A DNA stretch of 64,000 nt from Methanofollis tationis (GCF_013377755.1 NZ_JABXWR010000001.1:631104-695103), one strand, 5' to 3'. Positions 7,476-64,000 are shown, counted from the first letter of the stretch. A program made the numbers and translations. Notes: generated from the letters alone by a model not told the origin.

Positions 7476-7970
7476 ATGTTTCGAAAGGTGCTGTTCCCCA
7501 CGGATTTCTCCGACTGCTCGTATAAGGCCCTCGAGTGCGTCAGGCAGATGCGGGGTGCGGGCGTGGAGGAGGTGGTGATCGTCTCTGTCCTTGACGAGCG
7601 GGATACCGACCTGGTGACGACCGGGATCGGGTGGCTGAGCGGGGACCGCATGGTCGAATACGACGCCGGGATCGAGAGGCGGATGCGCGAGAACATGCAG
7701 GAGCGCCTCGACGGGATGGCGGGCGTGCTGCGGGGGGCGGGCATGAAGGTGAAGACAGCAATTGAAAAGGGTGTCCCTTCCGTCGAGATCCTGGCGATTG
7801 CAAAGCGGGAGAGGGCGTCTCTGATCGTCATGGGCTCTCACGGGAAGAGCAACCTCGCCGGCGTGGTGGTGGGTTCGGTCTCGGAGGAGGTGCTCAGGCG
7901 ATCGAGTGTGCCTGTCCTGATCATCACGCGCGAGATGCAGGGCGGGTGCCGGAGCCAGGGGGAAGAGTAG
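7476..7970 (+). CDS. Universal stress protein (UspA family)
   Basis: A 164-residue single-domain protein with the N-terminal strand KVLFPTDFSD, the middle IEKGVPSVEIL, and the C-terminal nucleotide-binding signature MGSHGKSNLAGVVVGSVSEEVLRRSS (G-2x-G-9x-G-[S/T]). It therefore belongs to the ATP-binding USP group. The ATG at 7476 starts the conserved domain directly. It stands about 100 bases after the flavoprotein gene on the same strand and could be co-transcribed. The cellular role is not evident. Confidence 0.85.
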   Translation: MFRKVLFPTDFSDCSYKALECVRQMRGAGVEEVVIVSVLDERDTDLVTTGIGWLSGDRMVEYDAGIERRMRENMQERLDGMAGVLRGAGMKVKTAIEKGVPSVEILAIAKRERASLIVMGSHGKSNLAGVVVGSVSEEVLRRSSVPVLIITREMQGGCRSQGEE

Positions 7971-8145
7971 TCCGGGAGATGGGACGCCCCGCCGGCATCT
8001 CCCGGTGCGCAGGTCGGTGGTGCTGAAGGTTCGAGAGAGGCGGCGTCCGCGTTTGCATGCCGGCAGACGCATATCTCACATTCTGATCTCTACGGTTATG
8101 GACGATCCCTTCTCCCGGTGCCGCCTCCGGGAAATATATGAGGTA

Positions 8146-8157
8146 TTTTTATATATC
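8146..8157 (+). promoter_or_regulatory. TATA box of the ornithine/proline operon
   Basis: TTTTTATATATC is centred about 25 bases before the ATG at 8177, so transcription should begin at or next to that ATG. This argues against the upstream in-frame ATG at 8138, which lies before the TATA box. Confidence 0.6.
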
Positions 8158-8176
8158 TCGGGCCGGCATTCACATC

Positions 8177-9490
8177 ATGGACCCTCTGATCCAGGTCACG
8201 CCGCCGGGCCCACGCGCCCGTGCCGTCCTTGAGCGCGACGCCGGGGTGGTCTCGCAGTCGATGGTGCGGGCCTACCCGCTGGTCCTCGAGCGTGCGGAGG
8301 GCACGAACCTCTGGGACGTCGACGGGAACCGTTACCTCGACTTCACCGCCGGGATCTCGGTGATGAACGTGGGCTGGAACCACCCGGCGGTCGTCGGGAC
8401 GGTGCGGGAGCAGGTCGGCCGCCTCTCCCATGCCGCCTTTCTGGATTTCTGCTCCGAGGTGCCGGTGCGGTTTGCCGAGGAATTGGTCGGGATGCTTCCG
8501 GGCGGGCTCGACCGCCTCTACTTCTCCAACTCCGGGGCCGAGACGGTGGAGGCCGCCCTCAAACTCGCCCGCCACCATACGAAGCGGAAGTATTTCATCT
8601 CTTTTTACGGCGGTTTCCACGGCCGGACCTACGGGGCGCTTTCCCTGACGGCGGCGAAGGTGATCCAGAGGAAACACTTCGGGCCGTTTCTCCCGGTGGT
8701 GCATGCACCCTATCCCGACCCCTACCGTCCGCTCTGTCCGTGTGCGGGCGACGAGTGCGCCCTCGATGCGATCAGGTACATTAAAGAGGAGATCTTCAGG
8801 ACCGAGGTCTCGCCCGAGGAGGTGGCGGCGATCGTCGTCGAACCGGTGCAGGGGGAGGGGGGCTACATCGTCCCGCCCCGCCCATTCCTGCGGGCCCTGC
8901 GGGACCTCTGCGACGAGCACGGGATCCTCCTGGTCGCCGACGAGGTGCAGAGCGGGTGCTACCGGACCGGGCGGTTTCTCGCCTCCGAGCATTCGGGCGT
9001 GGTGCCCGACATCGTCTGCCTTGCCAAGGCGCTCGGCGGGGGGCTTCCGCTCGGCGTCACCGTGGCCTCCGACGAGGTGATGACGTGGCCGCCGGGCTCG
9101 CACGCGAGCACCTTCGGCGGGAACTGCGCCGCCTGCGCCGCAGGGCTGGCCGTGCTCTCGGTGATGCGCGAGGAGGGGTTTGGCGAGCGGGTGAGAGAGA
9201 CCGGGGAGCACCTCCTCGCCGGGCTGCGGGGGTTGATGGACCGGCACCGGATCGTCGGCGACGTGCGGGGGATCGGGCTGATGGCGGCGATAGAACTGGT
9301 GCGGGACAGGGAGACGAAAGAGCCCGCCCGCGAGGAGCGGAACGCGATCCTCAGGCGGGCGTTCGAGGCCGGGCTCACCCTCCTGCCCGCGGGCGAGTCG
9401 GCGATCCGGTTCTCTCCGCCGCTGACGATCCGGCCGGCCGAGATCGATGCCGGGCTCCGGGTCCTCGACCGGGCGATGGAGGGATACTGA
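8177..9490 (+). CDS. Class III aminotransferase, probable ornithine (or GABA/acetylornithine) aminotransferase
   Basis: A 437-residue PLP enzyme. It has the N-terminal substrate-site stretch LWDVDGNRYLDFTAGISV, the PLP phosphate loop FSNSGAETVEAALKLAR, the aspartate motif LLVADEVQSGCYRTG and the lysine of CLAKALGGGLPLG that forms the internal aldimine, and STFGGNCAA. Length and motifs are typical of omega-aminotransferases. The two following genes convert P5C and proline, so the likely reaction is ornithine plus 2-oxoglutarate to glutamate semialdehyde (in equilibrium with P5C) plus glutamate. GABA or acetylornithine cannot be excluded. The ATG at 8177 is chosen because a TATA box sits about 25 bases upstream. 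Confidence 0.75.
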   Translation: MDPLIQVTPPGPRARAVLERDAGVVSQSMVRAYPLVLERAEGTNLWDVDGNRYLDFTAGISVMNVGWNHPAVVGTVREQVGRLSHAAFLDFCSEVPVRFAEELVGMLPGGLDRLYFSNSGAETVEAALKLARHHTKRKYFISFYGGFHGRTYGALSLTAAKVIQRKHFGPFLPVVHAPYPDPYRPLCPCAGDECALDAIRYIKEEIFRTEVSPEEVAAIVVEPVQGEGGYIVPPRPFLRALRDLCDEHGILLVADEVQSGCYRTGRFLASEHSGVVPDIVCLAKALGGGLPLGVTVASDEVMTWPPGSHASTFGGNCAACAAGLAVLSVMREEGFGERVRETGEHLLAGLRGLMDRHRIVGDVRGIGLMAAIELVRDRETKEPAREERNAILRRAFEAGLTLLPAGESAIRFSPPLTIRPAEIDAGLRVLDRAMEGY

Positions 9491-47735: not shown

Positions 47736-47807
47736 GCCTCGGTGGCATAGCGGTATCGCGCTTCCTTGGTAAGGAAGAGGTCGCGGGTTCGATTCCCGCC
47801 CGAGGCT
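47736..47807 (+). tRNA. tRNA-Thr (GGT)
   Basis: A 72-base cloverleaf: acceptor GCCTCGG with CCGAGGC, D arm GGCATAGCGGTATCGC, anticodon stem CTTCC/GGAAG with loop TTGGTAA (anticodon GGT), T arm GCGGGTTCGATTCCCGC. The 3' 13 bases form part of the attachment site of the integrated element that follows. The tRNA stays intact after integration. Confidence 0.93.
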
Positions 47808-47810
47808 TAA
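47795..47810 (+). repeat. Left attachment site of the integrated element
   Basis: CCCGCCCGAGGCTTAA covers the end of the T stem, the acceptor strand and the three bases after the tRNA-Thr gene. It is repeated exactly at 54426-54441; the bases before each copy differ (ATT against GCG), which sets the core boundary. Confidence 0.9.
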
Positions 47811-48022
47811 TCTCACCTTTATTTGAGTCCTCATGCCCTTAGTGCTTTTATTCGACCGCGAAAATGATTAACATTTCGGTCTATCATCGCCACAATTTAC
47901 CGCCGCAGGGTCAGGCGTTGCGCCCCCGGGGAAAAGAAGCGATTTCTAAGCGATATAGACGGCCCACAATGCGACCATAGCGGCGGCCTGTAGATTCGGT
48001 CAGGCGGCGGAAAAAAAGAGCG
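47811..48022. other. Left end of element, no gene seen
   Basis: About 210 bases between the attachment core and the first gene. No reading frame, repeat or clear promoter was recognised; it may hold recombinase arm sites. Confidence 0.4.
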
Positions 48023-48298
48023 TTAAAGGTTGCTGACAATCCACCCACGTGGCTCAGGGGCGCCCTTCGCGAATTTGATAGCGTTCAGACAGATCACCCG
48101 ATCTCCGGGCACCGGGCGGCCCGCTTTCCTGAGAACCGCCGCGGCCCTCGCCTCCGCGGGCGTGCTGAAGATCGTTTCGGTGGGCGGCACGGCGGAATCG
48201 GGATACACGGCGCTGATCGCCACGCACACAACCCCGGTACCGTTGCGCCCTTCTTCAACCGCCGCAATGCGTCGCTTTATGGCTTCACTGACGGCCAT
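48023..48298 (-). CDS. Small unknown element protein A
   Basis: A 91-residue protein starting MAVSEAIKRRIAAVEEG, with KRRR residues upstream only in an unlikely longer form. No family is recognised. It overlaps the preceding gene (48285-48536) by 14 bases and is the last gene of the minus-strand operon of the element. Confidence 0.55.
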   Translation of the reverse strand: MAVSEAIKRRIAAVEEGRNGTGVVCVAISAVYPDSAVPPTETIFSTPAEARAAAVLRKAGRPVPGDRVICLNAIKFAKGAPEPRGWIVSNL

Positions 48299-48536
48299 GT
48301 TTCGCCTCCGCTTCAAGTGCTTCGAGACGTTCGAGGATCTCCGCAAGGTCGGCATCCCTGAGGATCGCGTTTGACGCGGTCGCAAGGTGCGTGAATGCGC
48401 GACAATACGAGAGAAATTCTGAATCGACCATCGAAGGCTGGAATCTCTCAGCGCTCAAACGAAGCCCCATTTTTCTGAGAATCTCGCCCACCGCGGCGAG
48501 TAGTTCGCCCCGGGTTAATAAATCTGGTTTCGTCAT
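48285..48536 (-). CDS. Small unknown element protein B
   Basis: An 83-residue, mostly helical protein (LLAAVGEILRKMGLRLSAE, ending in a charged coiled-coil-like ILERLEALEAEAK). No family is recognised. It begins 3 bases after the stop of the 161-residue gene and is probably co-translated. Confidence 0.55.
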   Translation of the reverse strand: MTKPDLLTRGELLAAVGEILRKMGLRLSAERFQPSMVDSEFLSYCRAFTHLATASNAILRDADLAEILERLEALEAEAKHGRQ

Positions 48537-48539
48537 GAT

Positions 48540-49025
48540 TTAAGCCCCCTGCATTTTCGATTGGTATTTTCGCCGCATTAGGTTTTTCAACATCCGCTCT
48601 TTCTTCGCTAAGCGGCAAAACGCATCAAAGCGATCACACATCAGGGTATATCGCATCTGTACCCATTCGGCGCATACGTCCGCTTCGGGTCGGTAAATGA
48701 CCGTTGCGCCTGGTATGGGCGGGGCGTCGTCCCGCAATTGGCTTATCACCAAAAACGACCACACGCCGGTATCTTTGCTCTTGAACGCCGCCATTGTGTG
48801 TGGTTCTACTCCGGGCGGTCGGGCAAGCGTAAACGCAAATTTACGCGTATGTCGCCGCGCGGCATCGAAGGTTTTGTATGACATCCGTCCCGCCACAATC
48901 TGGAATCGGTCGGTCGGTTCCGGCGCAAGATAGTAATCATGCACCATAGTCGAACACCACATATCATCTATCGCTTCGCCGCCATCGAGCGGGTTGTATC
49001 CCGGGATAATTTCAATCCGTTTCAT
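48540..49025 (-). CDS. Unknown element protein C
   Basis: A 161-residue soluble protein without recognised motifs. It ends in a basic helix (KERMLKNLMRRKYQSK) that could bind nucleic acid. Its start overlaps the end of the upstream gene by 4 bases (ATGA), typical of a packed operon. Confidence 0.6.
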   Translation of the reverse strand: MKRIEIIPGYNPLDGGEAIDDMWCSTMVHDYYLAPEPTDRFQIVAGRMSYKTFDAARRHTRKFAFTLARPPGVEPHTMAAFKSKDTGVWSFLVISQLRDDAPPIPGATVIYRPEADVCAEWVQMRYTLMCDRFDAFCRLAKKERMLKNLMRRKYQSKMQGA

Positions 49026-49468
49026 TTTCTTACCTCATCTCTGTGTTCTCCCGGCCACCCTTCGCGAATCAGACGGTCCATGAACGCATCCGCGCCCCGG
49101 GCAACCGCCGCAAATTCATCAGCAGTCACCGGGACCGCCCCGGGAAGAAGATCCTCTCGCCGCGGCTTTCGCACGATAATATCAAACGTCCATTCCTCGG
49201 CGTTTTTCTTCCGATACATGCGAACGCATCCGGCGACGCCGTACCAGGTCCAGAACGCACGCTTAACCGCCGCAAGTGCCTTCTGGTAATCTGTGTGTGT
49301 CGTCGTTCCTGCAAGGCGCTGATAGTCGTAATACGGCTTAACGTCGCTTATTTCGCTCCAGATGGACGAGCATCCGAACGCTTCAATTTTCCCGTTGCCG
49401 GACGGATCGAAGTTCAGGACAATGGTAATACCAGAGTCCATTTTATCAGTTTTTTTCAGTTTAGACAT
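49022..49468 (-). CDS. Unknown element protein D
   Basis: A 148-residue protein with no recognised family. AAAGGAG lies upstream of the ATG, and TCTAAATAAA may serve as TATA box. A perfect palindrome (49491-49506) sits just upstream, so this operon of four genes may be regulated there. Confidence 0.6.
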   Translation of the reverse strand: MSKLKKTDKMDSGITIVLNFDPSGNGKIEAFGCSSIWSEISDVKPYYDYQRLAGTTTHTDYQKALAAVKRAFWTWYGVAGCVRMYRKKNAEEWTFDIIVRKPRREDLLPGAVPVTADEFAAVARGADAFMDRLIREGWPGEHRDEVRK

Positions 49469-49490
49469 TTATTTTCTCCTTTATTTAGAT

Positions 49491-49506
49491 TCTGAGAATT
49501 CTCAGA
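49491..49506. promoter_or_regulatory. 16-bp palindrome, candidate operator
   Basis: TCTGAGAATTCTCAGA is a perfect palindrome about 25-40 bases upstream of the start at 49468, overlapping the likely promoter. It could bind the element's ribbon-helix-helix protein or another dimeric regulator. Confidence 0.45.
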
Positions 49507-49643
49507 GGATATAGAGGATTTAGCCCATATCAAAATGGGCTCCTGTGGTACACATAGTATCAAAATTTTTTGAAATGGTATTCAAGAGAGAAGTAACGGA
49601 GGGGAGCCCATTTCCATGTGGCAAATATCCTCTGTATCCTCTG
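49502..49643. repeat. Long inverted repeat with iteron-like AGAGGAT copies, candidate origin
   Basis: Arms at 49502-49542 and 49603-49643 match as inverted repeats at 33 of 41 positions without gaps, with a perfect 11-base end (AAATGGGCTCC/GGAGCCCATTT) next to a 60-base AT-rich loop. Each arm carries AGAGGAT twice, giving two inverted pairs. It lies in the noncoding gap between the replication gene (stop at 49696) and the next operon. It could be a replication origin bound by the initiator, or a transcript hairpin. Confidence 0.6.
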
Positions 49644-49695
49644 GTTTCTTCCATTTTCAAAAAATATTTGATTTTTTGATGCATTTTCCTATTTC

Positions 49696-52131
49696 CTACC
49701 TTAAACGGAGTCCGTGATACACCATGCACCCATCGGCGCCCATTTCCTTGATGTATCCTGCGGCGGCTAAATCACGGCCGAATTTCTGAATTGTGACCGG
49801 GTGAAGCCCCCTGAAACGACTCCACAGCGTGTATGCCTCGTAGAGCACCGATGCCCCCGCGGAAGATTGCCGCGACTCGATGCAACATTCGTCGATGAAA
49901 TCCCGCATCTGGTCCATCGATCGCCGGTATGTTTCGGCGGCGACCTGCACGCACGGCGGATCTTGAAGCCCCCCGCGCTGATATTCAAGGCAACCCGCGA
50001 CAAGCCAGGCAAGGATGCCCTCGGCTTCTGCGAGAAGCGCGTCAGACAGCCCTTTCTCCTCTTTGCGTTCATTGTCGAACGTCGGTTCTGGGACAAAGGA
50101 TAGAGGAAATTCGATGCACCTGACGCGATACCAAAACGCCTTATCCGCCGCATCCGCGACCGGCGGTGTGTTCGTTTCGAGAACAATCATATGTGAAGCC
50201 GCAAATTGCACCTCGAAGCGGCCATACGGCGCACGCCCCGTCAGATCGGCCCCGCCGGAAAGATCCTTGATGCGTGCAACGTCAAACGCGTGTCCGTCGC
50301 CGTTTTCCGCCGCATAGACAAGCCGTTTTCCTCGAAGGCCCATGATTTCGGGACTTGGCGCGCCGGCGGACCGCATGAATCCACAATCAAGTAAAAGCCC
50401 AGCCCCCACCTTGCCGCACAAATCGCCGCCTAAAACCCGGTTAAGGACTTTCAAGAGCGTATCTTTGCCATTGCGCCCTTTACCTACAAGCAAAACGAGA
50501 TATTGCTTGTGTGCGGCGTCTCCTATGAGCGTCATACCGAATAGGCGCTTCAGGTATGCGACCTTCTCGGCGTCACCGTCGAAGATTTCGAGTAAGAACC
50601 GTTCCCACCGCGGCGCTTTTGCTTCAGGGTTGAACGGGACCGGGCAGACGGCCTGTAAGTAGTCAGTCGGCGCCCCGGGCCGAAGCGTGCCGGTCCGAAG
50701 ATCGAGAACGCCATTGGCGCATCCAAGAACCCACGGATCGCGATCCCATTCGTTTCCGGTGATCGCGAGCCACTCGCCACTTGTAGCGGCGAATTCAACA
50801 CAGGACTTACGAAAGCCGAGGTTCGATAGATTTCTATCCATTGCATACAACGCCTTAGAATCAGCATTGAGGCGTTTTTTGCGCTCTTTGAACGCTTCTA
50901 TTTCCTTCTCGCTCTGTCCAGTCGGATCCCATGCCTCGGTGATCTCTGCAATCTCCCTATCAACGGCGATAGCGGCGTTTTTGATCTCTTTCTGGATCGG
51001 GTCAAGCGCCTTGATCTGCTCGGCGATCGTCTGTTTGACCCACCCGACACCACCGAAGCGATACCATTGCTGTTCCGAGGCGTCGAATATATAAGTCCCG
51101 CGATACAACCCTGTATAGAGTTCGGCAATCCCGCGCTGACCTCCATATGCCGCCTTCGTGAGCCTTTTGAGAACCCGGCGGGCCTGTGCGACGTTGTCGG
51201 GTTCTTCGTCCGTTTCGCCGGGCTCCTCTTCCCCGGCCAGAAGCACTGAAGCGATTTCTTCACCATAGATGCGCCTGCGCCCCTCCTTTTCGAGTTGGGT
51301 TAATATTTCGCTCATTATCCGGTCGTTATTTAACACGCCGGGCCGCCCCTCCTCACATCGAACAATTCCCCGGGTCACGGCGAAGGCGAGAAGTGCATCC
51401 CCGCCGCTATTACACCGGAAACAATGCCATGTCCCGGCGGATGGGTTTATATAGAGGTTATGGCCGGTGCGGGAGCCGTGTATCGGATGAACGCCGAAGA
51501 TTTCATTTCCTGACCGTTTCGGGTTCTCTGGCATCAGGAATTCTTCAACGGTAAGCCCGCATTCGTCAGAAAGCCGTTTCCCGGTCGCAATTGCTTTTTG
51601 AGTCCCGGCATCGTTGCGCGGCCGCTGGATTTCGGCTTCGCCCTCCTGTGCGGCGATCCACGCGTGAAGGTCGTCCCATGACACATCAACGATTTCGCCC
51701 GGGTCATTGAGAACCTCATAGCGGCGGTTCGTTGCTTCGTGGATCGAGCCCGGCCCCACGACGAAGAAGTGCGAATCCGGCCCGCGCATATCGCCCCGGC
51801 TCCCGAAAACGAATTTCGCGGCGGGCGCGTCAGGACACCGGACGTAAACATGGAACCCCCCGGGACCGTCGCGGCCGCTCTTGACGACAAGCGATCTTTT
51901 CCACGCTTCCGGGATTGCATCCCACAACTCTTCAGAGTCACAATCGATAACACAGACGCCGTTTTTCGCCATGACGCCGTAATTCCCGCCGTTCTCAATC
52001 CAATTCAAGAGTTTCGGGTCGTCGATAGCGTAATTCGCGACATCCGGCCAATCTTTTTCAATCGCCCGTTTGCTGGCCTTCCCGACAAGATTGAACCGAC
52101 AACCGGCGAGCGTTTGCGGAATTACCGACAT
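49696..52131 (-). CDS. Replication protein: primase-polymerase with D5-type SF3 helicase
   Basis: An 811-residue protein. The N-terminal archaeo-eukaryotic primase-polymerase domain has the metal-binding VCVIDCDSEE and the SGRDGPGGFHVYV motif. A short zinc-binding segment follows (WHCFRCNSGGDALLAF, CHC2-like; with an upstream His). Then come a D5-N-like helical region (WVLGCANGVLDLRTGTL) and an SF3 helicase with Walker A LLVGKGRNGKDTLL and sensor MIVLETNTPP. This layout is typical of replication proteins of archaeal plasmids and viruses. It should make primers and unwind the element's DNA when it is excised. Confidence 0.9.
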   Translation of the reverse strand: MSVIPQTLAGCRFNLVGKASKRAIEKDWPDVANYAIDDPKLLNWIENGGNYGVMAKNGVCVIDCDSEELWDAIPEAWKRSLVVKSGRDGPGGFHVYVRCPDAPAAKFVFGSRGDMRGPDSHFFVVGPGSIHEATNRRYEVLNDPGEIVDVSWDDLHAWIAAQEGEAEIQRPRNDAGTQKAIATGKRLSDECGLTVEEFLMPENPKRSGNEIFGVHPIHGSRTGHNLYINPSAGTWHCFRCNSGGDALLAFAVTRGIVRCEEGRPGVLNNDRIMSEILTQLEKEGRRRIYGEEIASVLLAGEEEPGETDEEPDNVAQARRVLKRLTKAAYGGQRGIAELYTGLYRGTYIFDASEQQWYRFGGVGWVKQTIAEQIKALDPIQKEIKNAAIAVDREIAEITEAWDPTGQSEKEIEAFKERKKRLNADSKALYAMDRNLSNLGFRKSCVEFAATSGEWLAITGNEWDRDPWVLGCANGVLDLRTGTLRPGAPTDYLQAVCPVPFNPEAKAPRWERFLLEIFDGDAEKVAYLKRLFGMTLIGDAAHKQYLVLLVGKGRNGKDTLLKVLNRVLGGDLCGKVGAGLLLDCGFMRSAGAPSPEIMGLRGKRLVYAAENGDGHAFDVARIKDLSGGADLTGRAPYGRFEVQFAASHMIVLETNTPPVADAADKAFWYRVRCIEFPLSFVPEPTFDNERKEEKGLSDALLAEAEGILAWLVAGCLEYQRGGLQDPPCVQVAAETYRRSMDQMRDFIDECCIESRQSSAGASVLYEAYTLWSRFRGLHPVTIQKFGRDLAAAGYIKEMGADGCMVYHGLRLR

Positions 52132-52262
52132 TTGGACCCCTGCGCTTCCGCGTCACCCTGAAGCGTCCAGCGGCCTTCAGCGATGAAGCACTGAGCGACG
52201 ATCCTTTCAACCGGATCGAGCGCCGCAATCATTTCTGGTTTAACGATTCGCCGGTGCGCCAT
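52122..52262 (-). CDS. Small element protein, 46 residues
   Basis: The frame from ATG at 52262 to TAA at 52122 gives a 46-residue protein beginning MAHRRIVKPEMIAALD. It overlaps the end of the ribbon-helix-helix gene by 23 bases and the primase start by 10 bases, which suggests a chain of coupled genes. No family is recognised; it is too short for a firm call. Confidence 0.4.
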   Translation of the reverse strand: MAHRRIVKPEMIAALDPVERIVAQCFIAEGRWTLQGDAEAQGSKCR

Positions 52263-52398
52263 TCTCGAATCCCGTTTTAATGAGTTCTTCTACATACCGT
52301 GAGCGTGGGATAAGTCCGCGCTCGTTATCGATGCGCGCCACAAGTGCGCGGTCGATGCTCAGGCCGATGATCGGCCTGTTCGGATGATTGCCACCCAT
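52240..52398 (-). CDS. Ribbon-helix-helix (CopG-like) regulator, 52 residues
   Basis: The ATG at 52398 gives a 52-residue protein with RPIIGLSIDRALVARID (strand plus helix 1) and GLIPRSRYVEELIKTG (turn and helix 2), the fold pattern of ribbon-helix-helix repressors. It precedes the replication gene on the same strand and is divergent from the zinc-finger gene, so it probably represses its own operon and copy control. A TATA-like sequence lies between the two genes (AAATATTAACA). Confidence 0.65.
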   Translation of the reverse strand: MGGNHPNRPIIGLSIDRALVARIDNERGLIPRSRYVEELIKTGFENGAPANR

Positions 52399-52452
52399 AC
52401 AAACACATCGAAGCGTGGAAATATTAACATAGCAATCCGATCAAAATAGTGT

Positions 52453-53085
52453 ATGCGCCGTGTAAATGCTGAAGAGGCGTTTTTGGCCCGGGTCCGGGAT
52501 GAAACATTCTGGATTTACGAAAAGTGCCCTATCGGCGTTTCTCCTGAAGTGTGGGAGCGCGAGAGATCGCGGCAATACCTGATTATCGAGTATCCGTTTT
52601 TCGCGGCCCTACAGGACGGCAAAATAACCGTTAGCCGGTTTAAAAACCCACAACACCTTGAACTTGTGAAACTGAGACTTGCCCGCGCCCGGGTCATCAA
52701 CCTTTCCAGAGACGGCGATCTCGGCGTGCCGTTGTCCAGCGGCGAGATTCAAGAAACGATCTGCGAATGGTGCGGCGGTCCGTTTGCGGACGGCCTCGGC
52801 CCCCGGGAAACGGGGAAGCGTGTTTTCTGTTCTGACACCTGCAAGCAACGATTTAGAAGTTTCGAGCGGCATTACTCAAAATTGGCCGAATCGGGCGATT
52901 TAACGGAAAACCTACAACTCCTGCATGACCTCGGCGTGCCGGGCATTGAGTTGATGAAGATCCTCCGCCCGCGGTGCGCACATTGCGGCGGTGTCATCGG
53001 TGAGGACCGGCCTATCACGGCGCGCTTCTGTTCGGACAAGTGCCGCTATGACTTCCACAACGAAAAGAAAAAATCAGGAAAGTGA
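52453..53085 (+). CDS. Double zinc-finger element protein
   Basis: A 210-residue protein with two similar zinc motifs of the CxxC...FCSxxC type: CEWCGGPF with VFCSDTCKQRF (about residues 104-135) and CAHCGGVI with RFCSDKCRYDFHN (about 176-205). The N-terminal 100 residues are unrecognised. It is the only plus-strand gene in the element, divergent from the ribbon-helix-helix gene, and its end overlaps the recombinase stop on the other strand by 12 bases. DNA binding is likely from the fingers. Confidence 0.65.
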   Translation: MRRVNAEEAFLARVRDETFWIYEKCPIGVSPEVWERERSRQYLIIEYPFFAALQDGKITVSRFKNPQHLELVKLRLARARVINLSRDGDLGVPLSSGEIQETICEWCGGPFADGLGPRETGKRVFCSDTCKQRFRSFERHYSKLAESGDLTENLQLLHDLGVPGIELMKILRPRCAHCGGVIGEDRPITARFCSDKCRYDFHNEKKKSGK

Positions 53086-54324
53086 TTGTAGCGCCTCAAT
53101 CTTCCGTTCGAGGTCCGCAATCATTTTCATGAACCGTTCGTCGGCGCGAATCTCCGCTTTCATCTCATCAAGTTCGAGGACCGTTTCTTTTGTCAGAGGA
53201 TGACCGCACACGCCGCAAAAGTTGCGGTCCGGTTGGTTTACGGCATGACACCGCGCGCATATCCGGTTTGCGAGCGGTTCCGCGGCGGTTTGCGTTTCGG
53301 TAAGGTCTATTCCGGCGTGCCGGGCATACTCGGCGTCGATATCTGCGTTTACCAGGTGCGTGTATCGTGCAAGTTGTTCTGAGGTCAGGCTTCCCCACGC
53401 AACCATTTTAACGGTGCTTTCCCCGAACCCTTGCCGGATCATGTTTGTGATGCGAGAATGCCGGAACAGATGCGGCGTGATGTGCTTCTGTATGCCTGCG
53501 CGCTCTGCGATCCGCTGGAGAAGGTTTTTCGTGTAGTTGTAAGTCAGCGGTTTTTCCCGGGCGGTGATGAATACAAAATTCGCCCCCGATGCCTCGCCGG
53601 GATACGCGCTTCGCCACTCGGCAAGATAGCCGCGGGACGCGGTGAGCGGGATATATCGCGGCGTGCCGGTTTTTCCGGCCGTGTTTATCTTCACGAAATG
53701 CGTATCGAATTGAACGTCTGACCATTTCAGCGCCGCCACTTCGTGAATCCGCATTGCGGATTCATAAAGCACGCTGATAAGCGCCCGGTCCCGCGCCGCC
53801 GTGCTACTTGTGCATGAATGGATCATCGCCCGGATTTCGTCTTCGGTAAGCATCTGTTCGGCGGTCTTTGTCATTCGTTTTGCCGCTGGAGGCTTTATTT
53901 TGGCGATTTTGTCGGCGGGGAGGGTTACATATCCTTCTTCAATCAACCAGAGGTAGAAACGCTTCAGGAACGTGATATAATCCCGCTGTGTGTCCGGCGA
54001 TAGCATCCCGCCGCCGTTGTTCCCGTTTTTTGCCGCAATCTTCTTGCCGCGTTTTATGGCGGTAACGGCAAGGTAAATATCCCCGATGCGGTTTTCTACC
54101 AGCGGCGTTTTGCAGAACCTGGTGATGTTGCTCAATGAGTTGGTGGTTTTGTATGCCCGCGCATCGCCTATATTGCCGTTCGCCCTCTGGTGTGCGACAA
54201 ATTGCCGGATCAAGTCGGCATCTTCCGGCGTCATATCTCCCGCGTCAATCCGGCGCTGTATGCCGCGTTCGGCATATATCTCAAGTTCCTCGGCGGTCTT
54301 TCCGAAACTGACTATTTTTGCCAT
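53074..54324 (-). CDS. Tyrosine recombinase (integrase) with C-terminal zinc ribbon
   Basis: A 416-residue integrase. The N-terminal SAM-like DNA-binding domain runs to about residue 130. The catalytic domain has the first Arg in YESAMRIHEVAAL, HLFRHSRITNMI (H-x-x-R) and the tyrosine in LARYTHL. After the catalytic domain is a zinc ribbon (CARCHAVNQPDRNFCGVCG) and a coiled-coil tail. Start ATG at 54324 is preceded by AAGGAGGATGG. The gene is whole: the attachment site lies outside it, unlike SSV-type integrases. It should catalyse insertion and excision at tRNA-Thr. Confidence 0.93.
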   Translation of the reverse strand: MAKIVSFGKTAEELEIYAERGIQRRIDAGDMTPEDADLIRQFVAHQRANGNIGDARAYKTTNSLSNITRFCKTPLVENRIGDIYLAVTAIKRGKKIAAKNGNNGGGMLSPDTQRDYITFLKRFYLWLIEEGYVTLPADKIAKIKPPAAKRMTKTAEQMLTEDEIRAMIHSCTSSTAARDRALISVLYESAMRIHEVAALKWSDVQFDTHFVKINTAGKTGTPRYIPLTASRGYLAEWRSAYPGEASGANFVFITAREKPLTYNYTKNLLQRIAERAGIQKHITPHLFRHSRITNMIRQGFGESTVKMVAWGSLTSEQLARYTHLVNADIDAEYARHAGIDLTETQTAAEPLANRICARCHAVNQPDRNFCGVCGHPLTKETVLELDEMKAEIRADERFMKMIADLERKIEALQSLS

Positions 54325-54425
54325 CGTTGTTCTCCATCCTCCTTGAACGGGAGGCGCAATAAACGGGGCAAGCGGCAAAAAATCGTGTTTTTGCCGTGTA
54401 GGACTCAAACAAAAGTGATTTTGCG

Positions 54426-54441
54426 CCCGCCCGAGGCTTAA
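54426..54441 (+). repeat. Right attachment site of the integrated element
   Basis: CCCGCCCGAGGCTTAA repeats the tRNA-Thr 3' end exactly. It lies about 100 bases upstream of the recombinase start, the usual place for an element's own attachment site. Confidence 0.9.
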
Positions 54442-54504
54442 AGGATCTAAGTTATCATTCCCGCATAAAAAATAAGTCCAGATTAGTCCTCTTTTGTGAA
54501 CCAA

Positions 54505-54840
54505 TTATTTTGCAAAGTTTTCGTGGTGTTTGTGCCCTGCGTCTTTATCTGTTCCGTAAACCGCCAGCGATTCTTCGGCGGCCCGGGGTCGTGTGATCAT
54601 TCCGCTGTTGCCGGGGATATCTGAACATGGGGTGATACCTGCCAAGAAAAATAAGCGTTTTGCTTCGTTTCTCCCTGCCCGCAGAGCCTGGGCGCACCGG
54701 CTGCGGGTCGGGTTCCACTTCGGCTTCTTCGCATAGGTGAGATTTCGGATGCGCCGGCGGCCGATGGTGTCAAGTTTCTTCGCGTCGGCCGGGAGCGGCT
54801 CGCCGGCGGGGATGAGTATCCCTGTGTGGGGGAGACACAT
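54505..54840 (-). CDS. Unknown protein, 111 residues
   Basis: No family is recognised. The frame is supported by GC-rich third codon positions and by a TATA-like AAAATATATTAG about 65 bases upstream. The protein is basic (RRRIRNLTYAKKPKW, RAGRNEAKR). It lies just outside the right attachment site, so it may be host DNA or a remnant of an earlier element in the same tRNA site. Two other frames overlap it with poorer codon use. Confidence 0.4.
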   Translation of the reverse strand: MCLPHTGILIPAGEPLPADAKKLDTIGRRRIRNLTYAKKPKWNPTRSRCAQALRAGRNEAKRLFFLAGITPCSDIPGNSGMITRPRAAEESLAVYGTDKDAGHKHHENFAK

Positions 54841-54971
54841 CGCATCTTTGTGGTGTGTGGACGGTGCGATCTGCTGGAAAAGACCGCACCTTTCTCTTTT
54901 GGTCTAATATATTTTGAGTGCGTAGGGAGATTGCCTTTTGCAAACGCGGTGCTGAAGTATCCGCCCACCAC

Positions 54972-55667
54972 AAGTGATATTTTAAAAATGTATCTCTAAA
55001 TGCCTCGATCGCCCTACGGCCCGCACAATGGGTGCGCAGTAGTTAGGCAAAAGATTATAGAGGCTCTTCGCTGTTTCATGTGGGTGATTCCGACATGATC
55101 CCCTCCCTGCAGTCAGTCCCCGGCATGCCGTGTTCAGGTTCTCTCTCCATCCTGGCGTACCGGTCCCCCGCCTTCCCCACGCTGCCCGCCGGGGGCTTTT
55201 GCCCCCGGACCCCCGCGCACGATTGGACCGGGAAGGCGGGAGGCGATGTCCAGAAGAGGAGGTCTGCCGTCCTGCATCAATCGTATTTTGCGGGGGGACC
55301 GGGGGGCAGCAGGCCCCCCGACACCGGCATGCCGATCCTCCTTCCCGAACACAGCGAACCGATCGACCGCCTTCCTGCATCCCGCGCCGGGGGCTCTGCC
55401 CAGCTGAGCGGATTGGACCGGGAAGGCAGCACAAGGAGTCCGAATGGATCACCGCTATCTCTCCCGATCGCAGTTCTGCGGGGCAGCTGGCCCCCCGAAA
55501 CCGGCACGCCGATCAACCCGTCGACATGTTCCTCTTGAGATGCTTCCCGCCTCTAAAAATCGCGGTCTTTCGCGTATGATTTCCCCGGTCATCTGAGGGA
55601 GTCGGATGAAGGTATCATGGCTACCCACACAAAGGAGCGAAGAGCCATTATAGATCCCTGATGTCCT
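54972..55667. repeat. Dispersed repeat region, inverted copies of the 12-kb unit
   Basis: No gene is recognised. From about 55080 to 55530 lies a GC-rich repeat related to the 196-bp unit at 12.1-12.7 kb but in the opposite orientation (GCCCGCCGGGGGCTTTTGCC, ATCGTATTTTGCGGGGGG, GGCATGCCGATCCTCCTTCC) and, at its right end, to 31.1-31.35 kb. It ends with AAATCGCGGTCTTTCGCGTA and TGGCTACCCACACAAAGGAG (55545-55648), shared with 31.35-31.44 kb. CCGGGGGCTTTTGCCCCCGG is a strong hairpin. Confidence 0.85.
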
Positions 55668-56244
55668 TCAGCGCTCTTTGCTTTCATTGAAGGCGGACAG
55701 GGGCGGGCTCATGCCCCTCTCGGCCTCCTGGTAGGACCGGTAAAAGTCACGATAGAGCGGGATCGTATCCTTTTTCTTTTTCAGCAGGGCACTCTGAAAA
55801 CCGTATTTCAGATAGAACCTCTCGGAGTCCGGCTTGGAATCGACCGTGATCATCCGGCACCCCACATAGCAGGAGAGCCTCATGGCGATCGCCACTGTCT
55901 TCAGCAACATCGCTCGCCCGATGCCCCGGCCCTCGTACTCCTGATGTGTTGCCAGGCGTGCGATCTTCAGCGCCGGATAATGCGGATAGGGATACCACTC
56001 TTTCACCGTCATCTTCGCTGATGCCTTTCCTGATGATGCAGTCATTGGTGAGCGTGAAAAACCCGGCGATGCGTCCCTCGTATGAGACGATCCGCGTGAC
56101 AGATAACCGGGTGGCCTGGTTATCGAGTGCGTCCTCGATCAGGAACTCGGTCAGGTCCGGCTCTCTGCACTGGAACGATGAAACGTCGGTGTCTTCGTTG
56201 AGAAGAGAAAAAGATAGATTATCGAAGGGTATTTTCGTGTTCAA
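55668..56244 (-). pseudogene. GNAT acetyltransferase, frameshifted
   Basis: The N-terminal half (MNTKIPFDNLSFSLL, IEDALDNQATRLSVTRI, GRIAGFFTLTNDCI) reads from ATG 56244. The C-terminal half (YPHYPALKIARLATHQEYEG, GRGIGRAMLLKTVAIA, AYVGC-like CYVGCRMITVDSKP, FYLKYGFQ) continues in another frame from about 56030 to 55668. Together they make a typical GNAT of the kind found as toxin-like partner of small antitoxins. A single frameshift near 56010-56045 splits it. It could be a real mutation or a sequencing error. Its start overlaps the antitoxin-like gene by 4 bases. Confidence 0.7.
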
Positions 56245-56387
56245 AGTCGCATCTCGCGGGCGAGGATGGCGGCTTCGCGGATCAGTTCGCGGCCGTCATC
56301 GGTGTCGGTGGGGTGGTCCAGATAGCGCTGGAACCGCCGGGCGTCTTCCCCCTCCAGGACAAGCCCAAGTTCGATCGGTTTTGCCAT
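56241..56387 (-). CDS. Antitoxin-like small protein paired with GNAT
   Basis: A 48-residue protein starting MAKPIELGLVLEGEDARRF and ending in a helical TDDGRELIREAAILAREM. The ATG at 56387 begins the conserved part; AGGGAGGAAG precedes it. The small size and 4-base overlap with the following GNAT gene are typical of toxin-antitoxin pairs, but neither activity is shown. Confidence 0.6.
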   Translation of the reverse strand: MAKPIELGLVLEGEDARRFQRYLDHPTDTDDGRELIREAAILAREMRL

Positions 56388-56496
56388 CTTCCTTCCCTCC
56401 TGATCGTATAATATCCCGGGGCACATAAAAATAGGTTTCTCTTGGACCACCCATATCCCGGCCCGGGCGATCACCGCGTCCCCCGGCTACATCTTT

Positions 56497-56799
56497 TCAC
56501 CGCCGGGCCTTCTGTAAGGTCTCCAGGGCAAGGGCCGGGTTCTCGGCGGGAATGACCCGCAGTTCTGCAAGGATCCCCTGCGCCGAGTCCTGGGCATCGG
56601 CGGTGAGACCGATCCCGCACTTGCCGCAGAAGCGGGTACCGGGCGGGTTGACAAAGTGGCACTGTTCGCACTGCACCGGCTCGGTATCCTCGTTCTCCCG
56701 GGTCCGGCCGAGGTCCACGCCGGCGAGTTCCGCGAAGGCATCGTCCACGTCTTCACCGACCAGGTGCGAAGAGCCTTCTATATTCCTTTCATGGGTCAT
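56497..56799 (-). CDS. Zinc-ribbon protein
   Basis: A 100-residue protein with one zinc ribbon CEQCHFVNPPGTRFCGKCG near its centre. The ribbon and what follows resemble the C-terminal tail of the tyrosine recombinase encoded at 53074-54324 (CARCHAVNQPDRNFCGVCG). It may be a stand-alone regulator or the remains of an integrase. The ATG at 56799 is chosen for its position just before an acidic N-terminus. Confidence 0.5.
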   Translation of the reverse strand: MTHERNIEGSSHLVGEDVDDAFAELAGVDLGRTRENEDTEPVQCEQCHFVNPPGTRFCGKCGIGLTADAQDSAQGILAELRVIPAENPALALETLQKARR

Positions 56800-56987
56800 T
56801 TTTCGGTTTTTTTGAAAAAAAATCCCATATAGTGCCCCCTTTACCCCTTTCATCTGTACAAGATTTTTATGTCACATGGGTCGGCCCCGGCATACCCCGC
56901 GAGAGGATGGATCTACCGGGCTCATCTCCGGCGGTGAAATCCGGAGCGGGCGAAAAATTATATTACTTCAGGTATAATCCTCTGCAA

Positions 56988-63481: not shown

Positions 63482-64000
63482 TGTTTCAGATCTTCTGTAA
63501 TTCGTCTGAGCCCTGTCTCCTTGTTTGATCATTCCCCCTCCATCGTCAAATATCTTCTGCCGGTCACCCACTCCTCATTGATGTCCATCAGGATGGATCC
63601 TGCCAGCCTGAGGAGTGACTCTTCATTGGGAAAGGCCCCTACAACTTTGGTTCTCCGTTTCAGTTCCTTGTTGACTCTTTCCATCATGTTCGTCGTTCGG
63701 ATCCGCTTTGCGTGCTCTTTCGGGAACGCCGTGTAACTCATAAGTCCCGGGATGAATCTCTCGATCGTATTGGCCGCTTTCCGATATCCTCGTTCGTTCA
63801 GATCATCTGCAAGCTGCTGAAGTCTTTCCTCGTCCCCATATGCCTCCTTCAAGGACTCAGCAACTTCTTTCTGATGTTTCCGTGGAATATTCTTTAAAAC
63901 CGCCCGGGTGCAATGGACCGAGCACATCTGCCACGATGCGCCGAGGAAGGCGGCTTCCGCCGCCTTCTGGATCCCGGCATGACCATCTGAGACAACCATC
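63482..64000 (-). mobile_element. IS256-type insertion sequence, partial
   Basis: The end of an IS256-family element, with a transposase reading out of the window. The terminal inverted repeat is not certain; GTGTTTCAGATCTTCTGTAA just before the transposase stop is a candidate. The rest lies beyond 64000. Confidence 0.6.
63529..63999 (-). CDS. IS256-family (mutator-type) transposase, partial
   Basis: The C-terminal 156 residues of a transposase. They hold MVVSDGHAGIQKAAEAAFLG (second catalytic Asp), WQMCSVHCTRAVLKNIP and the Glu region RTTNMMERVNKELKRRTKVV, all typical of the IS256/mutator family. The N-terminus lies past the window end. The frame is open without a stop in this part. Confidence 0.9.
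   Translation of the reverse strand: MVVSDGHAGIQKAAEAAFLGASWQMCSVHCTRAVLKNIPRKHQKEVAESLKEAYGDEERLQQLADDLNERGYRKAANTIERFIPGLMSYTAFPKEHAKRIRTTNMMERVNKELKRRTKVVGAFPNEESLLRLAGSILMDINEEWVTGRRYLTMEGE

Follow-up and report, generated by a model that had tools for sequence, protein, structure and literature searches.

Makarova et al. 2014 described small capsid-less elements with a prim-pol gene that are integrated in archaeal genomes, including that of Methanosphaerula palustris, which belongs to the same order as the methanogen studied here, and they also put forward a satellite-virus hypothesis for them (PMC4158269). Further AEP families, both bacterial and archaeal, also reside on integrated mobile elements that often occupy tRNA genes (PMC5862659), and cryptic integrated elements of Thaumarchaeota possess an integrase, a replication gene and direct repeats at tRNA genes, without virion genes (PMC6563490). 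The archaeal satellites cited in a 2024 review are those of fuselloviruses only (PMC11389934). Unrelated 4.6-kb marine elements, Charybdis, have been suggested as possible satellites of archaeal tailed viruses (PMC12324425). Apart from that suggestion, no satellites of archaeal tailed viruses were found in the open-access literature, subscription journals lying mostly outside the scope of the search.

We analysed a stretch of 64,000 nucleotides from Methanofollis tationis, termed the window, which contains an integrated element at positions 47795-54441. Like the arCOG07809 elements (for example Mpal_2033) as they appear in the relevant part of the published account, the element is small, bears an integrase and an AEP primase, has no capsid genes and comes from the same order (PMC4158269). 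The replication proteins are set apart by description: the Mpal_2033-like protein is portrayed there as primase, SF1 helicase, HTH and zinc finger, whereas the window protein consists of AEP, zinc domain and D5/SF3 helicase. In addition, that account links arCOG07809 elements to fuselloviruses, whereas the window family is linked to tailed viruses, and it does not describe for them p2, p46 or the tail and terminase genes, which are features of the window family (PMC4158269). The preliminary description had called the element undescribed. This holds for the family, of which we found no description, but not for the general type, as small capsid-less archaeal prim-pol elements feature in the same account (PMC4158269).

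The element also resembles the P4-like phage satellites of bacteria, which have a tyrosine integrase at a tRNA gene, an AEP primase fused to a helicase, short iterons, no capsid genes and a size of about 7-12 kb. As far as Pfam and PHROGs show, the match to P4 is limited to the primase and the integrase type, and neither database pointed to a sid, psu or delta-type gene among p1-p4; the host here is archaeal and the helper putative. With the fusellovirus satellites pSSVx and pSSVi, which are helper-packaged, the element has in common an archaeal host, a plasmid-like build and a prim-pol replication protein. Their helper, however, is a spindle-shaped virus, whereas the virus links of the window family are to Caudoviricetes. 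In the pSSVx type the SSV-type integrase is split on integration; the window integrase (53074-54324) is intact and the core lies outside the gene. The Thaumarchaeota elements differ in their hosts and in having no discernible signature gene, whereas p2 and p46 serve as signature genes of the window family (PMC6563490). Finally, the tailed Methanoculleus virus Blf4 (MZ171369) and a provirus in genome G114 encode related primases and represent the type of source from which the tape-measure, TerS and TerL genes of relatives come. Unlike the element, both (Blf4 at 37 kb) are virus genomes with virion genes. Two further classes were ruled out: a casposon, since the integrase is PF00589 and not Cas1, and an integrative-conjugative element, since no product of the element matches a conjugation family in Pfam or PHROGs.

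Insertion at tRNA-Thr

The target gene, tRNA-Thr(GGT), was located with ARAGORN at 47736..47807 on the plus strand and is uninterrupted despite the insertion. At its 3' end, two exact plus-strand copies of the 16-bp core CCCGCCCGAGGCTTAA, attL (47795..47810) and attR (54426..54441), enclose 6,631 bp. The repeat search and the tRNA prediction thus bear out, to the base, the initial proposal of an integrated element with exact 16-bp repeats at tRNA-Thr. No third copy of the core occurs elsewhere in the window with up to three mismatches allowed, and the element is present as one copy in its genome (2.25 Mb, two contigs). The GC content is approximately 0.64-0.68 on the left side of the tRNA and drops to 0.50-0.58 within the element; part of the right flank is equally low. 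In Markov shuffles (n=300) comparing the tRNA region with the next 16 kb, the longest match had a mean of 10.5 and a maximum of 16. Because the second copy of the core lies immediately outside the integrase gene, a chance origin of the repeat is far less likely.

The insertion is better proven by comparison with congeners than by the rarity of a 16-bp match. In the sister species (G003, approximately 95% identical DNA), homology reaches the end of the tRNA and picks up again at window position 56949. In two other congeners (G057 and G039), DNA homologous to window 54426/54433-54673/54685 directly follows the tRNA. When the left flank up to 47810 was joined to the sequence from 54442 onward and aligned across the junction, the alignments extended over 549 nt at 74% in G057, 333 nt at 94% in G003 and 322 nt at 69% in G039; in G018 they covered 105 nt, mostly tRNA. 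We also considered that the same genes might be fixed in related genomes with no empty site. The three congeners G003, G057 and G039 are without the element at the same tRNA, and the claim of an insertion stands.

Joining the inner ends in silico gives the attP of the excised circle, with the layout AGGACTCAAA-(16 nt)-core-(11 nt)-TTTGAGTCCT. The P arm, AGGACTCAAA, lies at 54400..54409 and the P' arm, TTTGAGTCCT, an inverted copy of it, at 47822..47831, both given on the plus strand (shuffle p < 0.005). Such a repeat, inverted around the core, is what the sequence of a tyrosine-integrase attP is expected to look like, and the two arms are probably the integrase arm sites. The same geometry is seen in the reconstructed attP of five relatives, G057 (15 nt), G018 (18), G022 (13), G010 (14) and G175 (13). 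With the window included, 6 of 17 reconstructed sites reach a shuffle p <= 0.005, the remaining sites being weak or absent. The inverted arms provide independent support for the boundaries of the element.

Gene content

From right to left on the minus strand, the genes encode the integrase, an RHH protein, p46 and the primase-helicase, followed by a stretch of repeats and by p4, p3, p2 and p1; a zinc-finger gene on the plus strand is placed divergently between the integrase and RHH genes. The tyrosine integrase (53074..54324, minus strand, 416 aa) combines PF00589 with a C-terminal zinc ribbon and retains R192, HxxR at 285 and Y321. The zinc-finger protein (52453..53085, plus strand, 210 aa), whose gene is divergent from RHH and overlaps the 3' end of the integrase gene, has relatives in five other elements. 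The RHH-like transcriptional regulator (52240..52398, minus strand, 52 aa) matches phrog_4738 weakly. Between it and the replication gene lies p46 (52122..52262, minus strand), a small conserved protein. The primase-helicase (49696..52131, minus strand, 811 aa) contains an AEP Prim-Pol domain, a CHC2-like zinc domain and a D5_N / Pox_D5 helicase, with both the DxD motif at 63 and the Walker A motif at 550 intact. The earlier judgement that the element is complete is upheld by the exact cores, the presence of both attP arms and the intact motifs of the integrase and the primase-helicase.

The four genes to the left, which overlap or nearly touch, lie on the minus strand and encode p4 (49022..49468, 148 aa), p3 (48540..49025, 161 aa), p2 (48285..48536, 83 aa) and p1 (48023..48298, 91 aa). 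None of the four matched Pfam or PHROGs. The hallmark of the family is p2, for which a helical hairpin is predicted (pLDDT 89.7); this model had no fold match in BFVD or the PDB, and p2 had no sequence match among phage records. Relatives of p1, a protein of no assigned function, occur in three other elements (L096, L171 and L176). The orphans p3 and p4, for which nothing convincing was found in 232 genomes or among phage records, align with each other at 20% over 111 aa (E 0.004), and from this similarity they may be diverged paralogues. An AlphaFold model of p4 (pLDDT 43) was discarded. Domain searches agree with the gene list first drawn up (intact integrase, primase-helicase, regulators and four-gene operon). 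Likewise, scans with Pfam and PHROGs matched no virion family among the products of the element, as had been stated, and no transfer gene was recognised in it.

An AT-rich intergenic stretch at 49489..49680, directly after the replication gene, is a candidate iteron origin. It contains three copies of CAGAGGATA, two of them as the tandem TATCCTCTG, and a 41-nt inverted repeat. In two relatives (G065 and G031), other short iterons follow the replication gene directly, in the same position as CAGAGGATA in the window. As the repeats in the window copy are few, we infer its role as an origin from the repeats and leave the assignment as putative.

A family in Methanomicrobiales

Relatives were surveyed in one genome per species with an ad hoc, crude gene caller, our own profiles and tRNA predictions; several of them sit on short contigs. 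With a p2 profile, hits came from 23 of the 232 Methanomicrobiales genomes and were spread over 13 of the 40 genera. Among element loci, the connected clusters comprise 23 for the integrase, 23 for p2, 22 for the replication gene, about 20 for p46 (19 in this clustering), 10-11 for RHH (10 in this clustering), six for the zinc-finger protein and four for p1. The search for related elements in other tRNA-Thr genes, proposed at the outset, found them at Thr(GGT), Thr(CGT) and Thr(TGT). Closed elements, in which a repeat of the tRNA end lies just outside the integrase, are present at Thr(GGT) in G018, G039, G057 and G175, at Thr(CGT) in G155 and at Thr(TGT) in G010, G022 and G170; outside the Thr tRNAs they are present at His (G065), Arg (G031) and Ser (G017). 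The repeats in G039, G022, G010 and G170 measure 11 bp, borderline by length alone, and lie within approximately 70 bp of the integrase. In three further genomes the integrase is instead at the tRNA end (G193 and G059 at Gly, G023 at Thr CGT). In two more, G001 (Val) and G130 (Ala), p2 elements lie between repeats of the tRNA end, and no integrase of this cluster was recognised in them. Over all these elements, sizes range from 5.3 to 13.4 kb.

Gene order is common to the elements at Thr, His, Arg, Gly and Ser tRNA genes. The replication gene is freely swapped and may be of the AEP/D5 type, the DUF3987 type, UvrD with DnaG, or DNA polymerase A. Three of the closed elements (G057, G010 and G170) have p46 and no p2. 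Judged by these sequence comparisons, the results suggest that the element belongs to a widespread family in Methanomicrobiales. Searches of IMG/VR, which reach close relatives only, returned none for the window primase and integrase or for three proteins of related elements; the window integrase also had no relatives in the named genome collection. One viral contig in IMG/VR carries a tape-measure relative (59%). A comparison of CRISPR spacers with the element gave short matches in G001, G087 and G128, all of which lie outside CRISPR arrays, and a candidate match in G132, which falls in the integrase.

Links to tailed viruses

Two p2 elements from different host families, G130 and G039, carry a tail tape-measure gene, placed in both behind small genes that follow p2. 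The G130 protein matches phrog_1533 (1e-112) and is 47% identical to that of Blf4; its contig carries a tRNA-Phe and ends at the integrase, so this element has no closing repeat. The G039 element (13.4 kb) is from the same genus and occupies the same tRNA gene as that of the window. Two of its small genes and its tape-measure gene match Blf4 genes with their order kept (phmmer 8e-10, 1e-8 and 9e-130), and its other genes, scanned one by one against PHROGs and Pfam, include none of a head, portal or terminase family. The elements of G022 and G103 have a large protein in common, which tape-measure profiles match weakly in G022 and not in G103. A 927-aa protein of G021 (L119) was rejected as tape-measure-like; it is of replication type and has 72 related loci, most of which lack the core genes looked for. 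The nearest named relatives of a replication protein from G021, a congener, belong to Methanofollis MAGs.

Terminase-related genes are present in five loci that have the p46 core and no p2 (G010, G170, G183, G142 and G180). TerL is ATPase-only in G010, G170 and G142 and full length in G180. A TerS-like protein is encoded in G010, G170, G142 and G180, and a homologue of this protein lies directly beside TerL in the G114 provirus. No p2 and TerS module were found together in the loci examined, no p2 gene was next to a Blf4-like portal or TerL in the loci retrieved, and no capsid genes were found in elements of the family. Most p2 elements have no recognisable virion gene. When 123 accessory proteins from p2 elements, with the two strong tape-measure genes deliberately set aside, were tallied by PHROGs family, the named entries were mainly DNA-metabolism, integration and regulatory families (among the 25 of 40 families listed). 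The window primase is related to the primase/helicase of Blf4 (2e-37). Blf4-like portal genes are absent from the host genome and occur in 7 of 232 genomes of the order.

Discussion

We put at roughly one in two the probability that the element is a complete, probably functional, capsid-less integrative replicon whose life is most likely satellite-like, in the manner of P4. In such a life cycle, the tyrosine integrase would carry out recombination between attP and the 3' end of tRNA-Thr(GGT) in such a way that the tRNA is restored, and excision would be the reverse of this reaction. The freed circle would be replicated by its own AEP/D5 primase-helicase, starting within the iteron-rich DNA that follows the replication gene, and replication may be controlled by the RHH protein and p46. 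Cell-to-cell transfer would most likely occur through packaging in particles of a Blf4-related tailed archaeal virus, and p1-p4 may have a role in redirecting this helper. Because no gene that exploits the packaging or morphogenesis of a helper was recognisable in the window copy (Pfam, PHROGs and homologue searches), we describe the element as working like a satellite and do not file it as one. Tentatively, the family might be the first recognised satellite family of archaeal tailed viruses (Blf4-like), with helper modules swapped at one position: a tape-measure cassette, TerS with an ATPase-only terminase, or, in the window, the compact p1-p4 operon, which would serve the same purpose with proteins of no assigned function. 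Against the satellite reading stand the orphan status of p3 and p4, the lack of a fold match for p2 and the rarity of Blf4-like portals.

A competing explanation, which we regard as possible and favour less, is that the element is an autonomous plasmid, capable of its own integration and replication, which moves between cells unpackaged, through uptake, vesicles or another route; the tail and terminase genes of relatives would then be acquired cargo, for example for interference with viruses. The complete replication module with its candidate iteron origin, the window copy without a virion gene and the listed accessory families, mainly of DNA metabolism, integration and regulation, are consistent with such a plasmid. 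However, no transfer gene was recognised, and a plasmid leaves unexplained why, in two elements whose hosts belong to different families, p2 is followed by small genes and then a tape-measure gene, and why TerS-like and terminase genes recur in four loci. The preliminary description had named the element an integrative plasmid. Integration and its own replication genes agree with that name, but the tail and terminase genes of relatives fit a virus satellite at least as well; the name is only partly supported, because similarly built relatives carry tape-measure or terminase genes without capsid genes. A satellite-like life, that is, self-replication combined with packaging by a tailed virus, would be at least as likely as that of a plasmid.

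It is improbable that the element is the remnant of a Blf4-like head-tailed provirus that has lost its structural arm. The G114 provirus (L112) does have a similar arm of integrase, regulator and AEP primase, followed by TerS, TerL and portal, and the relationship of the window primase to that of Blf4 would fit such a descent. In the window, however, the reading frames are undamaged, as are the two attachment arms, and the capsid-less layout recurs in many genera together with element-specific genes (p2 in 23 genomes), so independent deletions are hardly its source. A domesticated genomic island that is no longer mobile would fit the single genomic copy and is very improbable, given the intact integrase and primase motifs, the exact att cores and arms, and the absence of the element from a sister species at approximately 95% DNA identity.

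If the satellite reading is true, tailed viruses that infect methanogens carry hitchhikers of the sort known from bacterial phages. Even as plasmids, the elements would offer a methanogen group ready-made small replicons that target tRNA genes and possess attP, an intact integrase and a candidate origin. With elements that have a tape-measure gene and lack head genes, the control of tail length or interference can be put directly to the test.

An older element beside attR

The DNA to the right of attR is a decayed element and not plain chromosome, an observation that adds to the preliminary description. The stretch at 54442..56948 is what remains of another element of this kind, older than the first, and retains its left-end arm. 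It matches the left end of an intact 9.2-kb element in G057, is missing from G003 and contains at its end a C-terminal piece of a second integrase (56497-56853). The window thus carries one intact element that entered an older, decayed one at its tRNA-proximal site.

Tape-measure genes, terminases and a candidate helper

At tRNA-Thr(GGT) in genome G039, a 13.4-kb element (locus L104, 2773–16160) carries p2, the hallmark protein of the family (83 aa in the window copy), and a cassette, similar to one in the tailed Methanoculleus virus Blf4, of two small genes and a tape-measure gene. No head, portal or terminase genes are recognisable in this element. A tape-measure gene sharing 47% identity with that of Blf4 is also found in genome G130 (locus L167, 7110–9731), within an integrase/p2 element adjoining tRNA-Phe.

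Terminase proteins comprising the ATPase part only are encoded at loci L117 (6226–7044), L120 (13079–13888) and L124 (15990–16748). In each case, a TerS-like HTH gene adjoins the terminase gene and a conserved protein of 213–261 aa is encoded nearby, the L117 copy being phrog_27743. A Blf4-like provirus at tRNA-Gly in genome G114 (locus L112) contains portal, TerL, TerS and AEP primase genes, and its integrase is of the kind found in the element family. Such a provirus is plausible as a type of helper for these elements.

Other loci

The 927-aa replication-type protein of locus L119 (13259–16042) has 72 related loci (L215–L286), nearly all in Methanomicrobiales; the genomes of Methanogenium marinum, Methanogenium cariaci and Methanoculleus sp. 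FWC-SCC1 each contain several of them. These loci apparently form another group of elements.

The window's own genome encodes a second related integrase (43%; locus L133, G000:C1:738000–756000, 7601–8863), with no tRNA gene in the 18 kb of that locus. Adjoining attR on the right is a second, decayed element (window 54442–56948), which retains its left-end arm and the C-terminus of an integrase; the reading frame of its GNAT-type acetyltransferase gene (55668–56244) appears broken. At the window edge, an ORF (63529–63999) resembles the C-terminus of a transposase.
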